Positions 22,201-35,922 of a stretch of 64,000 nt of DNA are shown here, piece by piece. Origin of the DNA: Pseudomonas frederiksbergensis (GTDB lineage: Bacteria > Pseudomonadota > Gammaproteobacteria > Pseudomonadales > Pseudomonadaceae); contig NZ_FNTF01000002.1 in the NCBI RefSeq assembly GCF_900105495.1, positions 4,642,501 to 4,706,500 on the forward strand. Reading direction: 5' to 3'. The notes under the pieces were generated by a model. The model was given only the letters and a program-made list of their open reading frames with translations, had not been told where the DNA came from and did not search any database. The position numbers and the translations under genes are program-made. The number at the start of each line of letters is the position of its first letter. Position 1 is the first letter of the stretch.

Positions 22201-22275
22201 GAGCAGGCATGAAACTACTTCCATCCCGGGTATGCTCACTTGCAAGGCCAGCGCGTCAACGTTAAGGTCTGCGTC

Positions 22276-22347
22276 ATGACTACGCCACGCATCGAATCGA
22301 CCACAACCTTCACGACCGCCACAGGCGGGTCGTGGGAGGTTGTGTGA
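22276..22347 (+). CDS. threonine-rich leader peptide
   Basis: 23-codon ORF, ATG behind AAGG at 9 nt. Its core reads ESTTTFTTATGG: eight Thr in 23 residues, six of them within residues 9-16. The Thr codons lie in the 5' arm of the first hairpin of an attenuator (next entry). The layout is that of E. coli thrL, but the gene behind it is not a threonine-pathway gene. Confidence 0.65.
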   Translation: MTTPRIESTTTFTTATGGSWEVV

Positions 22348-22403
22348 GTTAAAACAACGCATAACCCCGAAGACCCGCCAGTGATGGACCGGGTCTTTTT
22401 TTT
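22302..22403 (+). promoter_or_regulatory. transcription attenuator (1:2, 2:3, 3:4 alternatives)
   Basis: Segment 1 (22302-22320, CACAACC...CACGACCGCC) pairs with segment 2 (22324-22344, GGCGGGTCGTGG...GGTTGTG). Segment 2's GGCGGGTC (22324-22331) is also perfectly complementary to GACCCGCC (22372-22379) in segment 3. Segment 3 AGACCCG (22371-22377) pairs with segment 4 CGGGTCT (22390-22396), followed by eight T: an intrinsic terminator. Stalling on the leader's Thr codons would cover segment 1, free segment 2 to hold segment 3, and allow read-through. Confidence 0.7.
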
Positions 22404-22441
22404 GCCCCCGGATTTATTGGCACAAACGTAAGGAAACGCAC

Positions 22442-22960
22442 ATGTATGCACTACTGATTCTCGACATGCAGGTAGGGCTCGTTCACGGCCCGGACAGGCC
22501 CTGGGGCCGTGAAGCGCTTCTCGATACATTGAACAGGCTAATCAGAAACGCACGGGAGGCCGGCGCCCCAATCTTTCTCGCTCGCCACCTGGGTCCGGCC
22601 GGATCTCCTATTGAGCCGGGCAGTCCGCTCACCGAGCTTGTCCCAGAGTTGCAGCTAATGGGTGACGAAGTGATTTTTGAGAAAAATCGTCCCAACGCCT
22701 TTGTGGCGACCGGGTTGGCCGGTCAGCTACGCGAACGCGACTGTGAAGGCATCGTCGTGACAGGAATGAAAACTCAATACTGCGTAGACAGTACTTGCCG
22801 TGCTGCCCGCGATTTAGGTTTCGATGCTGTACTCATCGCCGATGGACATACCTGCTCTGATACTCCAACGCTTAATGCAAAGGCCATCATTGCCCACCAC
22901 AATGCAACCTTGGCGGGGCCATTCTGCCGAGTCGTTCAGGCTGAGGAATGGAGTTTTTAG
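22442..22960 (+). CDS. isochorismatase-family cysteine hydrolase
   Basis: 172-residue hydrolase of the isochorismatase/nicotinamidase fold. The triad is Asp8 (LLILDMQ), Lys81 (IFEKNRPNAF) and Cys114 (GMKTQYCVDST), with the usual cis-peptide VVTGM before it. It cleaves an amide, ureide or enol-ether bond in an unidentified small molecule. It starts 39 nt after the attenuator's T run with AAGGA upstream, so the attenuator controls it directly. A hairpin (22971-22997) follows. Confidence 0.9.
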   Translation: MYALLILDMQVGLVHGPDRPWGREALLDTLNRLIRNAREAGAPIFLARHLGPAGSPIEPGSPLTELVPELQLMGDEVIFEKNRPNAFVATGLAGQLRERDCEGIVVTGMKTQYCVDSTCRAARDLGFDAVLIADGHTCSDTPTLNAKAIIAHHNATLAGPFCRVVQAEEWSF

Positions 22961-23467: not shown

Positions 23468-23539
23468 CCTTTAAAGTGCCTGGTCCTGTCGCCAGCGCTT
23501 GACTCTGTCCCTTGGGGCAACCCCTACCCTGCCTTGTCC

Positions 23540-24866
23540 ATTTCAGGTTCCGCCGTCAGCGGATAAGGCAATCCATGAATATGTTATCGCTGGTCAGAAA
23601 AAAACAGCCAAGCGCACTGCGTTGCCGGCAGAGTTTCCACGCACGCTGATCCATCACGAACCGGACAACACCTACTGCCCATGTGGCTGCGCACTGAAAC
23701 GTATCGGTGAAGACGTCAGCGAGAAGCTGGACTACACGCCCGGCGTGTTTACCGTTGAACGCCATGTCCGTGACACATGGGTATGCGATGACTGCGAAAC
23801 GCTGATCCAGGTACCCGTTCCGGCGCAGGTCATCGACAAGGGCATCCCGACCGTAGGGTTGCTAGCCCACGTCATGATCGCGAAGTTTGCTGACCATCTG
23901 CCTCTTTACCGTCAGGAATCGATTTTCGGTCGAGCTGGCTTGGCGATTCCACGTTCAACTTTGGCTCAATGGGTTGGCGTGACTGGCTTGCAGTTACAGC
24001 CTCTGGTGGATGCGTTGCGGGACGTAGTGCTCGGGCAGCAGGTTATCCATGTCGATGAAACACCCGTGCAGATGCTCGTTCCAGGCTCAAAGAAAACCCA
24101 CCGTTCTTATGTTTGAGCCTACGCCACCAGCCAGTTCTCGGACTTGGCAGCGGTGGTTTACGACTTCAGCCCCAGCCGCGCCGGAGAACATGCACGTAAC
24201 TTCCTGCAAGACTCGAAGGGCAAGCTGGTGTGCGACGATTTTGGCGGCTACAAAGCCAGTTTTGAACTCGGCTTCACCGAGATCGGTTGCATGGCCCATG
24301 CGCGGCGCAAGTTTTTTGAGCTGCACGCCACCAACAAGAGCCAGCCCGCCGAACAGGCCCTGCGTTATATCCAGTTGCTTTACGAAATCGAACGTGAAGT
24401 CTACGACCTAGAGCCGGATTTACGGCGCCGAAAACGGCAAGAAAAAGCGGTACCGGTGATGGATATGCTGCATGCTTGGATGATTGCCCAGCGTGATCTC
24501 GTGCCTGAAGGCTCAGCCATCAGCAGAGCATTGGATTACAGCCTGAAACGCTGGGCAGCGCTGTCGCGCTACCTTGATGACGGGACCGTACCCATTGACA
24601 ATAATTGGGCAGAGAACCAGATCCGGCCGTGGGCTCTTGGACGCAAGAACTGGCTCTTCGCAGGATCGCTACGCAGCGGACAACGGGCGGCGGCGATCAT
24701 GAGCCTGATCCAATCGGCGCGGCTCAACGGGCATGAACCGTATGCTTATTTGAAGGACGTCCTTACGCGCCTGCCGACGCAGCGAGCGAGTGAGATTACG
24801 CAACTGCTGCCGCATAGCTGGACTCCCGCCTAATAACGTAAGCTGGGAATGTACGGATGCTCACGT
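23540..24866 (+). mobile_element. IS66-family insertion sequence, left-truncated
   Basis: Holds a broken tnpC only; tnpA and tnpB and the left end are gone. The probable right terminal repeat is at 24847-24866 (reading inward GTGAGCATCCGTACATTCCC), shortly after the tnpC stop. No matching left repeat upstream. The left junction is somewhere near 23500-23570. Confidence 0.75.
23570..24833 (+). pseudogene. IS66 transposase TnpC, N-terminally truncated, with nonsense codon
   Basis: Zinc-binding region (NTYCPCGCALKRIGEDVSEK, then WVCDDCETL), DDE residues in VIHVDETPVQML, LVCDDFGGYKA and NNWAENQIRPWALGRKNWLF, and the IS66 C-terminal tail are all visible. Translation breaks at TGA 24114-24116, in the same frame on both sides (RSYV * AYATSQFSD), where the family normally has Trp (TGG -> TGA). 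Roughly the first 100 residues are missing. Non-functional. Confidence 0.88.
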
Positions 24867-26818: not shown

Positions 26819-27574
26819 TCAGCCAAATCCCACCACTCGTTGTTCATGCAACTGCTGCAACATTGACAATCCGTTATTGAAGAACTCCGGTGATTCGGTC
26901 ATTCCCGCCTCGCCTGCCAATGCTTGCAAATGCGCCCGTCCATCCAACCTGGGGAATTGCTCGATGCGTTGCAACAATCGAAAGGCCCAAGGGCTCAAGC
27001 TAGAAAATTTCACACTGAAGTCCAGATCACGACGCACCAACAGCAAAGTTGGCTGATCCAGCGGCGCATCGGGCTGAAAATCCGGCCCCACCAACTGCAC
27101 CGGCCAGACATACGCCAACGGCCACGCCAATGACGAGACCTGTAACGGACTATCCAACAACGACTCGCTTTCACCGGATAACAATGGCTCGGCCTCGGAC
27201 TGTTGCAAAGCCATTTCCACCCATTCGTAGTGCGCAAGCTCCACCATAAACGGTGGCCACGACCCACCGGCCAGTGCTGCAGGCTCAGAGGCGAGAAACT
27301 CCACGAACTCCTCAGCGATCTCGCCGAATTTCGGCGTGTGAGCTCGGTAGTCACGCAGGAAAATCCGCACCAGTGCCCGCCACTGTTGGTCACCGAGGAT
27401 CTTCACCAGCACCGGAAAAGTGCCGCTGATCAACGTCGACAGGTTGGCGAATACTAGGTCGCGATAAATCTGCGCCCGCGCCGGGTCCATCTCGGGTGGT
27501 GGCGCGCAGTGGTCGGGATCGCGCAGGTAGAGGCCCATGCTGTTTTGCTGCTCGTGCAGTGAACGTTTAGGCAC
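26819..27574 (-). CDS. DUF2063 protein, partner of the MNIO (DUF692) enzyme
   Basis: 251 residues; N-terminal DUF2063 'putative DNA-binding' domain ([20 protein letters not shown], then [20 protein letters not shown]) and a C-terminal domain as in HvfC/BufC proteins, which deliver precursor peptides to the DUF692 enzyme. The GTG start at 27574 overlaps the DUF692 stop by 8 nt, so the two are translationally coupled. No DNA-binding role need be assumed. Confidence 0.87.
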
Positions 27575-28424
27575 AGTTCATCTCCCCAACCTGCAAATGG
27601 CGAATGGTGTCCAGTTCGGCAATTAATTCGGAAAATGCCGGGAAGTTGAAGTCCCGCTCCAGCAAAGTCGGTTGCGCACCAAACCGGGCGTAGGCCTCAG
27701 CCAGCAACGACCACACCGCCGGTTTGACTGAGGCGCCATGGGTATCGATTTTCAAAGTGTCCGACTGATCGAAGTGTCCAGCGATGTGCATGGCCACCAC
27801 GCGCCCGGCATCGATGCCGGCCAGGAATGCATGTGGATCGAAGCCGTGGTTGATCGAATTGACGTAGACGTTGTTGACGTCCAGCAACAGGTCGCAATCG
27901 GCCTCGCGCAGCACCGCATTGGTGAACGTTACTTCGTCCATGTCCTGTTGTGGCACGGCGTAATAGGAGACGTTTTCCACCGCCAGCCGACGGCCGAGAA
28001 TGTCCTGGGCCTGACGGATGCGAGCGGCGACGTGATGCACTGCCTCTTCGGTAAAGGGTAGCGGCAACAGATCGTAGAGATGACCGTCGTCGCTGCAGTA
28101 ACTTAAATGCTCGCTGTATAGCGGCACGTTGTAGTGATCCAGGAAACCCCTCACTTCTTGCACAAAACCGATATCTAGCGGCGACGGCCCGCCCAGTGAA
28201 AGCGACAAGCCATGACACGACAACGGATAACGCTCGGCCAATCTGCGTAACGCTGCGCCATGGGCACCGCCAATGCCGATCCAGTTTTCCGGCGCGACTT
28301 CGAGAAAGTCGAAATGACCGGCCGGAGCAGCCAATAGGTCATTCATTAAACCGCGTCGCAAGCCGAGCCCGGCGCTGGCTTTGGCTTTGGCTTTGGCTTT
28401 GGCGCAAGAGATGAGGGTGTGCAT
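27567..28424 (-). CDS. DUF692 / MNIO-family multinuclear iron oxidative enzyme
   Basis: 285-residue TIM-barrel protein of the family (MbnB, TglH, BufB/HvfB) that uses two or three iron ions to modify Cys or Asp residues of RiPP precursor peptides. Putative ligand-bearing motifs are intact: [56 protein letters not shown] and LERDFNFP. The N-terminus carries an Ala-Lys run ([10 protein letters not shown]) encoded by a hexanucleotide repeat. It is followed by its DUF2063 partner, but no cysteine-containing precursor peptide gene is evident on either side. Confidence 0.9.
28377..28400 (-). repeat. hexanucleotide tandem repeat in the DUF692 gene
   Basis: Four GGCTTT units (+ strand), read as Ala-Lys pairs near codon 10 of the DUF692 gene. 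Copy-number change would alter the number of AK pairs without a frameshift. Confidence 0.85.
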
Positions 28425-28567: not shown

Positions 28568-29902
28568 TTACGCCAAGTCGTACTTCTCGCGCACAAAATG
28601 GCCGATGCCGATGCGATCCAGCACAATCATCGGGCACAGGAACGTCACGCGCACGGTGCCCGGCAAGCGACTGATATCGATGGAGCCGGTAATCGTGGCG
28701 CGGTTGAGCACTTCGTCATAAGGCAAGCCGGTGACGGCAGCCGCACGCTGCAAGCCGTTTTCGACCGCAATGTTAAGGTTTTCGCCACTGCCAATGAACG
28801 TGATCGGCCCGCTCTGCTCGATCTCGTGCTGGCCCCAGCGCTCACCCAGCTCGCGGACTTTCTGAAGCTGCCTGGCATTCATCGGCCGAGCCATGGGCGG
28901 CAAGTCGTCGAGGTTTTGCAGCAGGATAGGCCCTTCCAGCGTCAGGTTCTTCACCACTTCCACCACCACTTCGGTTTCCCCGGAGCAGTCGGTGGCATGC
29001 CCGGCGATCTCGCCATTGCCCTGCTGGGCGTGCATGTCGCCCATGTACACGCCGGCGCCTGGCACTTTGACCGGGCAGATCAACACGCACCCCTCGCGGA
29101 TCGAGTTGGTGTCCATGTGACCGTCAGTCTTGGCCGCGTGCAATTCTTCGCGGGTCATGCCGAAACGGTGCGGCGCGCCGATCAGGTACTGGCCGAAATC
29201 GGCGCAGTTGTGCGAGTCGGGCAAATCACGGGACGGCGTGGTGCCGATGTTGCCGAGGAATGGCCGCATGTGCGCCGCCACTCCGGGAATGTCTGCGCGC
29301 GCCAGGGACAGGATCGAATGTTGCGCGGCGAATTCCGGCAACGCCGACATCTCGGCTGCGTTACCGGCCAGTTGATTGGCGACGTCCTGATTGACGGTAA
29401 GGCTGACCTGATTCTGCGCATCGAACACGATCACATAGCCATGGCTGAAGCGAAACGCGCTGACCTCTGCGCCACAGGTGTTACAGCGAATCGAATCCTC
29501 GCCAATGCCTTCGACATGGCTGGCTGGATGTTCGGTGCCGCACTTGGCGCAGAATTTGGAGACGAACGGATCGCCGTGGTAGCGACCTTCAACGAAGCTC
29601 ATCACCCCGGACGAAGTGGCCAGCGAGGTGACGCGCATGCGTTTGATCTTGATCGCCACCGCGTCGCCGATTTCCGCACCGGCAATGGCCACCGGTTGCG
29701 TCACTTCATGGCCACCCTCGAAGGCCGGCGTGATCATCGGCCCCCAACAGCCCGGCGGTGTACCGGTGATCAAGGTGCCGCCGTCGGCCAGTGGCCCGAG
29801 CATCGGCTGGCTTGGGCCGATGATGCCGTTGGTGTAGTGATCGACCCGTAGGCGATGGACCGGCGTGGCATTGAGACTGGTTTCAGGCACAAATGTTGTC
29901 AT
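28568..29902 (-). CDS. acetamidase/formamidase family protein
   Basis: 444-residue FmdA/AmdA-type hydrolase converting formamide or acetamide to the acid and ammonia. It contains the GxHxxTGP-like substrate region, a zinc-ribbon-like insertion FCAKCGTEHP ... RCNTCGAEV in the middle (about residues 120-150), and the conserved GDMHAQQGNGEIAGHATDCS block. The start is ATG 29902. It could receive amides from the same nitrogen-scavenging lifestyle as the nitrile cluster 17 kb away (inference). The DUF692 start is 143 nt downstream. Confidence 0.92.
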   Translation of the reverse strand: MTTFVPETSLNATPVHRLRVDHYTNGIIGPSQPMLGPLADGGTLITGTPPGCWGPMITPAFEGGHEVTQPVAIAGAEIGDAVAIKIKRMRVTSLATSSGVMSFVEGRYHGDPFVSKFCAKCGTEHPASHVEGIGEDSIRCNTCGAEVSAFRFSHGYVIVFDAQNQVSLTVNQDVANQLAGNAAEMSALPEFAAQHSILSLARADIPGVAAHMRPFLGNIGTTPSRDLPDSHNCADFGQYLIGAPHRFGMTREELHAAKTDGHMDTNSIREGCVLICPVKVPGAGVYMGDMHAQQGNGEIAGHATDCSGETEVVVEVVKNLTLEGPILLQNLDDLPPMARPMNARQLQKVRELGERWGQHEIEQSGPITFIGSGENLNIAVENGLQRAAAVTGLPYDEVLNRATITGSIDISRLPGTVRVTFLCPMIVLDRIGIGHFVREKYDLA

Positions 29903-35707: not shown

Positions 35708-35836
35708 ATGTCCAGCACCCTCTCACAGCTTCGTACCGTCAGCGCCCTGCGCTCGGTGGCGGCTGCCCGGGTGAATGACGTTTGTGCTCCGGTCAGCTTT
35801 TATTTTGGGTATTGGTTTAGCCACTGGCGCGCCTGA
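35708..35836 (+). CDS. aromatic-rich leader peptide 1
   Basis: 42-codon ORF behind GGAG. The last third reads SFYFGYWFSHWRA: three Phe, two Tyr and two Trp within ten codons, then TGA. It sits 47 nt before a strong intrinsic terminator, the arrangement of a ribosome-controlled attenuator sensing aromatic amino acids, upstream of the first enzyme of their synthesis. Confidence 0.75.
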   Translation: MSSTLSQLRTVSALRSVAAARVNDVCAPVSFYFGYWFSHWRA

Positions 35837-35883
35837 TACCCACACGGCGCCCACTTTAAACGGGTCGCCACCAGAGATTTCTC

Positions 35884-35922
35884 AACCCCCGGTCGGCTTC
35901 CCGACCGGGGGTTTTGTTTTTT
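35884..35922 (+). terminator. attenuator terminator before DAHP synthase
   Basis: Perfect 13-bp stem AACCCCCGGTCGG (35884-35896) / CCGACCGGGGGTT (35901-35913) with CTTC loop, then GTTTTGTTTTTT reaching 35922. Confidence 0.85.

Follow-up and report, generated by a model that had tools for sequence, protein, structure and literature searches.

A putative threonine-codon attenuator conserved with a stand-alone isochorismatase-fold hydrolase in Pseudomonas and other beta- and gamma-proteobacteria

A single hydrolase gene within a 64,000-nucleotide stretch of the Pseudomonas frederiksbergensis genome (hereafter the window) is preceded by a leader that very probably acts as a ribosome-mediated transcription attenuator reading the charging of tRNA-Thr, judging by the layout and conservation of its sequence. 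Attenuators are textbook devices of biosynthetic operons; the one described here sits on single enzymes in changing gene neighborhoods, and in a sister family the sensed amino acid has apparently been swapped.

Anatomy of the leader and its promoter

The following elements, all on the plus strand, were located in the window, with the type of evidence given in parentheses.

22240–22245, plus strand: predicted −35 box TTGCAA (best sigma70-type pair within 45 nt upstream, spacer 17)
22263–22268, plus strand: predicted −10 box TAAGGT, 7 nt 5′ of the leader ATG (sequence)
22276–22347, plus strand: leader peptide ORF MTTPRIESTTTFTTATGGSWEVV and stop codon (sequence)
22297–22323, plus strand: control codons, STTTFTTAT (sequence, codon conservation)
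22303–22320, plus strand: segment 1, partner of segment 2 (folding, alignment)
22324–22343, plus strand: segment 2, in which GGCGGGTC (22324–22331) is the partner of segment 3 (complementarity, alignment)
22370–22379, plus strand: segment 3, in which GACCCGCC (22372–22379) is the partner of segment 2 (complementarity, alignment)
22386–22397, plus strand: segment 4, the 3′ arm of the intrinsic terminator (folding, alignment)
22396–22403, plus strand: U-tract, eight T (sequence)
22405–22421, plus strand: segment 5, complementary to 22377–22393, i.e., the terminator loop and the first part of segment 4 (covariation, permutation)
22430–22435, plus strand: Shine-Dalgarno (SD) sequence AAGGAA of the hydrolase, segment 6 (duplex energies, accessibility)
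22442–22960, plus strand: isochorismatase-fold cysteine hydrolase, 172 aa (Pfam PF00857)

Read directly, the leader ORF has 23 codons, 8 of which specify Thr. Its run of control codons is accompanied by the structures expected of an operon attenuator, namely the 2:3 antiterminator, a perfect 8-bp duplex (22324–22331 with 22372–22379), and the 3:4 terminator, which are mutually exclusive, plus hairpin 1:2. Folding of 22270–22405, a check proposed in the first-pass annotation of this DNA, predicted hairpins 1:2 and 3:4 at a minimum free energy of −51 kcal/mol (z −3.43; none of 200 shuffles as good). That annotation had placed the leader ORF, segments 1 to 4, the terminator and the hydrolase where direct reading also finds them; its position for the hydrolase after the terminator stands, but its gap of 39 nt does not, because 38 nt are counted between the U-tract and the hydrolase ATG (22442). 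The promoter at 22240–22268 abutting the leader ATG, segment 5 and the wider leader family go beyond what had been annotated.

The abutting promoter is a general feature: the −10 box of the best −35/−10 pair lies 6 to 7 nt before the leader ATG in 82 of 87 leader-bearing loci (6 nt, n = 47; 7 nt, n = 35), compared with 11.6% of 1,728 random ATGs of those loci. From this spacing, the predicted +1 coincides with or adjoins the A of the leader ATG, and translation from a leaderless 5′ end is probable. Alternatively, in the window, AAGG of the promoter could act as an SD sequence if transcription began further upstream.

The leader is conserved together with the hydrolase

A DNA search with 22230–22450 produced matches in 36 of the 199 genomes of the window's genus that form our genus sample, and a Thr-rich leader was found 5′ of the same hydrolase in all 30 loci fetched from that search; at least 80 loci were obtained when the hydrolase alignment was run against named genomes. 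Five partially matching loci were excluded, and 105 loci were examined in total, with the Thr leader defined as an ATG-started ORF of 10 to 50 codons that contains at least 4 Thr in 8 residues and lies 70 to 260 nt upstream. Such a leader is present in 87 of the 105 loci (86 distinct, L003 being the same as L033), from the genera Pseudomonas, Delftia, Burkholderia, Paraburkholderia, Andreprevotia, Vogesella, Silvimonas, Pseudogulbenkiania, Serratia, Rouxiella, Winslowiella, Ewingella, and Shewanella. It was not found in the other 18, i.e., L031, L068, 2 Aeromonas loci and 14 distant homologues (35% to 43% identical) from Rhizobium, Bacillota and an acidobacterium. L031 (P. helleri) is missing the Thr run and L068/L220 (L068 being P. 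batumici) has no leader, with the hydrolase ORF kept in each case. A plasmid collection contained 59 records with a hydrolase homologue, and all 5 that were read (2 from Pantoea and 1 each from Duffyella, Burkholderia, and Paraburkholderia) carry the Thr leader.

A profile search of the 199 genus genomes, which found hydrolase genes independently of any RNA model, recovered 77 copies of the subfamily in 75 genomes (241 to 314 bits) and a separate group of 61 paralogues (119 to 148 bits). Covariance model R2, which was trained on Thr leaders together with the Met leaders described below and includes several training leaders that precede the hydrolase, returned 111 strong (56 to 108 bits) and 21 weaker (32 to 40 bits) matches at E ≤ 1e-5. 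A strong match lies at most 260 nt upstream of 75 of the 77 subfamily copies, whereas no match of either strength lies there in the 61 paralogues; the 2 remaining copies are G015 (L221), with terminator-like remnants, and G079, with no leader. At E ≤ 0.01, a class-wide search gave matches in 50 of 369 genomes, and none of the 11 loci inspected from other genomes in this search had a Thr leader before this hydrolase. Inspected model matches of about 20 to 44 bits resembled plain terminators, remnants or other low scorers and were excluded from the counts.

The search for leader and hairpins at homologous genes, which the first-pass annotation had called for, thus supports its reading (75 of 77 genus copies; 87 of 105 loci). 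The annotation had also named the observation that would count against it, a hydrolase lacking the leader; this arrangement exists in apparent losses (L031, L068, and one G015 copy), the 2 Aeromonas loci, the 14 distant homologues and the paralogues, but not elsewhere. Its alternative suggestion that the leader was captured from elsewhere fares worse, since across beta- and gamma-proteobacteria the leader stays with the hydrolase even where the neighbors change, and this co-conservation speaks against chance occurrence or recent capture. Leader remnants with no hydrolase behind them were seen in L204, L198, L222, and L228; in L198, the next ORF is transposase-like by eye.

Control codons and a methionine sister family

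Control codons were analyzed in 33 non-redundant leaders chosen from the 87 and aligned on the last Thr of the run. At each of the 5 codons before this anchor, Thr is found in 23 to 30 of the 33 leaders, and the third base of the Thr codons varies (ACC 130, ACG 37, ACT 19, ACA 13); as all four synonyms are in use, the amino acid is conserved, not the bases alone. The number of Thr per leader ranges from 4 to 10 across all 87, and the Thr run is mostly followed by Ala. Within the peptide, conservation is highest in this run and in the Gly-Gly that encodes segment 2.

The same scaffold also precedes other genes. The 36 strong R2 matches that are not located before the hydrolase comprise 28 before a gene for a GNAT acetyltransferase (as identified by Pfam), 2 before a gene for an MFS transporter (MFS_1, E 3e-31) and 6 that look like remnants or degenerate copies. 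The two MFS leaders, in a genome that we take to be P. batumici, are identical (MNIFFVTTTTTTTTTAIGGPRGGCAL) and contain nine Thr codons. The 24 GNAT leaders that were read resemble MxxxxRMNMMCSSMTASGGP or MxxxNxVSMMRPLMTAFGGP, with 2 to 4 internal Met, and the −10 box lies 6 nt before the ATG in 23 of them. Among 12 aligned Met leaders, one pair of helix 1:2 is U-A (10 leaders) or U-G (2 leaders); 13 of 18 Thr leaders have C-G at this pair. The scaffold RNA was found upstream of 28 of 63 GNAT homologues scoring at least 198 bits; among the 35 without the RNA, 20 were fetched and none of the 19 readable ones had a Met leader. As only 28 of the 63 keep it, some lineages can do without this control. 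The codon-swapped family and the conservation of the Thr leader with the hydrolase together lend good support to the earlier claim that the level of charged tRNA-Thr would control the enzyme.

Two further leader types were noted in the course of these searches. At L119:1477–1660, a Lys/Thr-leader candidate with a similar terminator precedes a gene for a semialdehyde dehydrogenase (PF01118; asd-like by eye), and the same arrangement before a gene asd-like by eye occurs on the minus strand of L240 (leader at 1504 of the reverse complement); the 2 leader peptides, MIRLTINKRTMKTKTLLAGSRLSVRV and MIRSIKRTTKTKRLPAGLPDCLRA, respectively, possibly belong to a Lys/Thr attenuator from a different family within the class. 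In L201, L205, L206, and L207, weak model matches from four genomes, a Thr/Ala-rich ORF and a terminator lie about 150 nt before a gene that is CheR-like by eye.

Two additional pairings may couple termination to translation

Covariation was assessed after aligning 51 of the 87 leader-bearing loci; here, helix 1:2 receives modest support (0.102 versus 0.083 ± 0.006 in shuffles). Covariation of helices 2:3 (83.8% of cells paired) and 3:4 (84.0%) is not above that of shuffles in this alignment, because both helices are nearly invariant. By contrast with shuffles, a signal emerged for an added helix between the GCCAG-containing top of the terminator and a CTGGC-like stretch after the U-tract, i.e., segment 5: 36 cells are changed on both sides versus 15.7 ± 3.5, and the covariation score is 0.251 versus 0.145 ± 0.013 (0 of 500 shuffles as high). 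In many loci, this helix reaches into segment 4, which makes the 4:5 pairing an alternative to the terminator.

Segment 5 is also often complementary to the SD sequence of the downstream gene, with matching changes across loci, as in GTGTTTCTCC/GGAGAAACAC (L084), GTTCTCC/GGAGAAC (L082), and GTGTCGCT/AGCGACAC (L054). In 33 representatives, the native pairs are more stable than those formed after exchange of partners, both for 4:5 (mean −22.4 versus −18.3 ± 0.5 kcal/mol) and for 5:6 (−12.9 versus −10.1 ± 0.4 kcal/mol), each beating all 10,000 partner permutations, while for the control pair 4:6, 8,247 of 10,000 cross-species permutations were as good. When segment 5 itself was shuffled, 4:5 was in the best 5% in 27 of the 33 but 5:6 in only 17. 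The 5:6 duplex takes in at least 3 of the 4 SD core bases in 25 of 33, and with segment 3 occupied by segment 2, predicted SD accessibility goes up by more than 0.1 in 17 and down in 1. In 11 Met leaders, 105 of 10,000 permutations were as good for 4:5, 34 for 5:6, and 5,596 for the control; versus shuffles, 4:5 was in the best 5% in 5 of the 11 and 5:6 in 6. Equilibrium folding of masked states revealed no SD difference (19 of 33 higher; Wilcoxon p 0.90) and was dropped as proof of an SD switch; the SD layer would therefore need co-transcriptional trapping. In the window, the 4:5 hairpin has −16.4 kcal/mol, the 5:6 duplex is weak (−5.8 kcal/mol; 48.5% of shuffles as good) and the SD sequence is open in both states (accessibility 0.92 versus 0.95). 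Overall, the two extra pairings suggest coupled control of termination and translation, with an SD layer that is weak in the window.

The hydrolase and its changing neighborhood

The gene product belongs to Pfam PF00857 (E 4e-34), and all 8 aligned homologues share residues D8, K81, and C114, bearing out the first-pass assignment of a D8-K81-C114 hydrolase with the isochorismatase fold. In NCBIfam, it stays below the cut-off of every listed model, as do the homologues searched, and the equivalog cut-offs for biuret hydrolase (56 of 370 bits), RutB (30.6 of 378), and nicotinamidase (25.8 of 174) were not reached. The structure model (pLDDT 79.5) matches PA1677 (8cib, 33% identity), PP1826 (4h17, 29%), and others including 2a67, and among the closest solved structures are those of biuret hydrolase and nicotinamidase, along with one deposited as N-carbamoylsarcosine amidase; no substrate assignment followed from the PDB, Pfam and NCBIfam searches. 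An anti-phage defense family was considered and rejected, as PADLOC gave no match for the hydrolase, the GNAT acetyltransferase or the MFS transporter.

The distribution of the subfamily is patchy (75 of 199 genus genomes), and its context changes. Among the BLAST clusters of flanking genes in 62 loci, none occurs in more than 10 loci and two reach that number, all in Pseudomonas, so an operon with a neighbor conserved throughout was discarded. The upstream cluster (L059, L070, L071, L072, L075, and L077 to L081) consists of a divergent gene about 1.5 kb from the hydrolase, and the one member tested, that of L077, was identified as a serine/threonine transporter (TIGR00814; score 543 bits, cut-off 525.8); the downstream cluster is a D-2-hydroxyacid dehydrogenase in L077. 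Being on the opposite strand, the transporter does not share a transcript with the hydrolase, but its proximity hints that threonine metabolism may matter in that Pseudomonas clade.

Several other features were noted in the window. An IS66 transposase at 23499–24833 is split into 2 ORFs (23499–24116 and 24144–24833, PF03050 in both), and members of the same ORF cluster are also near the hydrolase in L040, L043, and L045. The minus strand carries a gene for an MbnB/TglH/ChrH-type RiPP-modifying enzyme (PF05114) adjoining that for a DUF2063 protein (26819–28424) and one for an acetamidase/formamidase family protein (28568–29902, PF03069). The Pseudomonas sRNA P15 (RF00627, 126 bits) is located on the plus strand at 35794–35911.

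Proposed mechanism and possible roles

We propose that the transcript begins with the AUG of the 23-codon leader or immediately beside it. With ample Thr-tRNA, the ribosome would reach the stop codon and cover segment 2, allowing 3:4 to form and transcription to terminate in the U-tract. With Thr-tRNA in short supply, it would stall on the Thr codons and cover segment 1, so that 2:3 forms and transcription reads through into the hydrolase gene. In a second layer, found in many relatives and weakly in the window, the freed segment 4 would probably pair with segment 5, which could otherwise pair with the hydrolase SD sequence; the 4:5 pairing would thereby open the read-through mRNA for translation. 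The regulated gene is a self-contained unit, for which we prefer a role in removing or scavenging a compound that lowers Thr-tRNA charging. More broadly, and tentatively, leaderless six-segment switches with exchangeable Thr or Met codons may sense the loss of one charged tRNA and activate stand-alone detoxification genes (cysteine hydrolase, GNAT acetyltransferase and MFS efflux) at the levels of termination and SD accessibility, as an induced defense against amino-acid antimetabolites or aminoacyl-tRNA synthetase inhibitors of competitors. Defense against Thr-tRNA depletion is the speculative part of this proposal.

The closest competitor keeps Thr-tRNA attenuation and differs only in the enzyme, which could serve ordinary metabolism by freeing threonine or a precursor from an amide. 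This is a real possibility, though less likely than not: classical attenuators guard the supply of the amino acid that they sense, the fold hydrolyzes amides (the biuret hydrolase, nicotinamidase and N-carbamoylsarcosine amidase entry mentioned above), and the serine/threonine transporter cluster, found in 10 of 62 loci, all 10 from Pseudomonas, speaks for threonine supply rather than defense. We nevertheless favor defense because the regulated genes form a hydrolase, acetyltransferase and transporter set, the hydrolase is restricted to 75 of 199 genus genomes and its neighborhood changes, with no neighbor cluster beyond 10 of 62 loci. That same set, the usual repertoire of resistance, would also suit a leader that senses the stalling of ribosomes by an antibiotic, with the hydrolase inactivating the drug. 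Phenicols stall ribosomes at Thr/Ala/Ser contexts, and the Thr run is mostly followed by Ala; yet a drug leader needs one stall site rather than 4 to 10 Thr codons, and the Met sister family does not fit the Thr/Ala/Ser rule, which makes this reading unlikely.

Two explanations that deny any sensing fare worse still. The ORF might encode a translated small protein followed by the plain terminator of an upstream unit, and a terminator alone would indeed be common. Against this very improbable reading stand the promoter abutting the leader, the concentration of peptide conservation in the Thr run and the segment 2-encoding Gly-Gly, and the swap of codons to Met in the sister family. Hardly any weight remains for the view that the leader was captured by chance from a threonine operon and is functionless now. 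It does resemble thrL in design, and leader remnants that lack the gene do occur (L204, L222, and L228), but Thr codons and scaffold accompany the same gene in 75 of 77 copies and across beta- and gamma-proteobacteria, and the threonine leader family RF00506 gives no match at this locus.

If the defense reading, which we prefer, is correct, uncharged tRNA may serve as an alarm for an inhibitor, and the substrates of the hydrolase and the acetyltransferase could be sought among compounds that deplete Thr-tRNA or Met-tRNA. It would also add a switch, driven by the ribosome, in which control of termination and of translation are coupled.

Comparison with known systems

No Rfam family matches 22276–22403 at gathering scores, Thr_leader (RF00506) being absent there and having no hit above cut-off in the same genome. 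Matches to mir-3817, mir-3047, and IRES_Bip were all below gathering scores and rejected; the sub-threshold microRNA matches we take as chance. The E. coli thrL design invoked in the first-pass annotation therefore applies to the mechanism but not to the family. As in the E. coli thr attenuator, a Thr-rich leader peptide, alternative hairpins and an intrinsic terminator precede the regulated gene, but this is a single hydrolase gene instead of thrABC; unlike thrL, which has Ile codons in its run, the Thr run here has none, the leader is predicted to be leaderless, and segments 5 and 6 are added. Sinorhizobium trpL is a leaderless attenuator leader and thus shares the position of the ORF at the transcript 5′ end (predicted here), with a different amino acid and different genes. 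The Bacillus trp leader, controlled by TRAP, likewise combines termination with SD sequestration, as its read-through mRNA can also hide the trpE SD sequence, but there the signal is sensed by a protein and here, we infer, by the ribosome. The enzyme shares its fold and D-K-C residues with the PF00857 members PA1677 (8cib), PP1826 (4h17), and 2a67, at 29% to 33% identity. The mechanism class is thus known, and what would be new are the target genes, the codon swap on one scaffold and the added segments.
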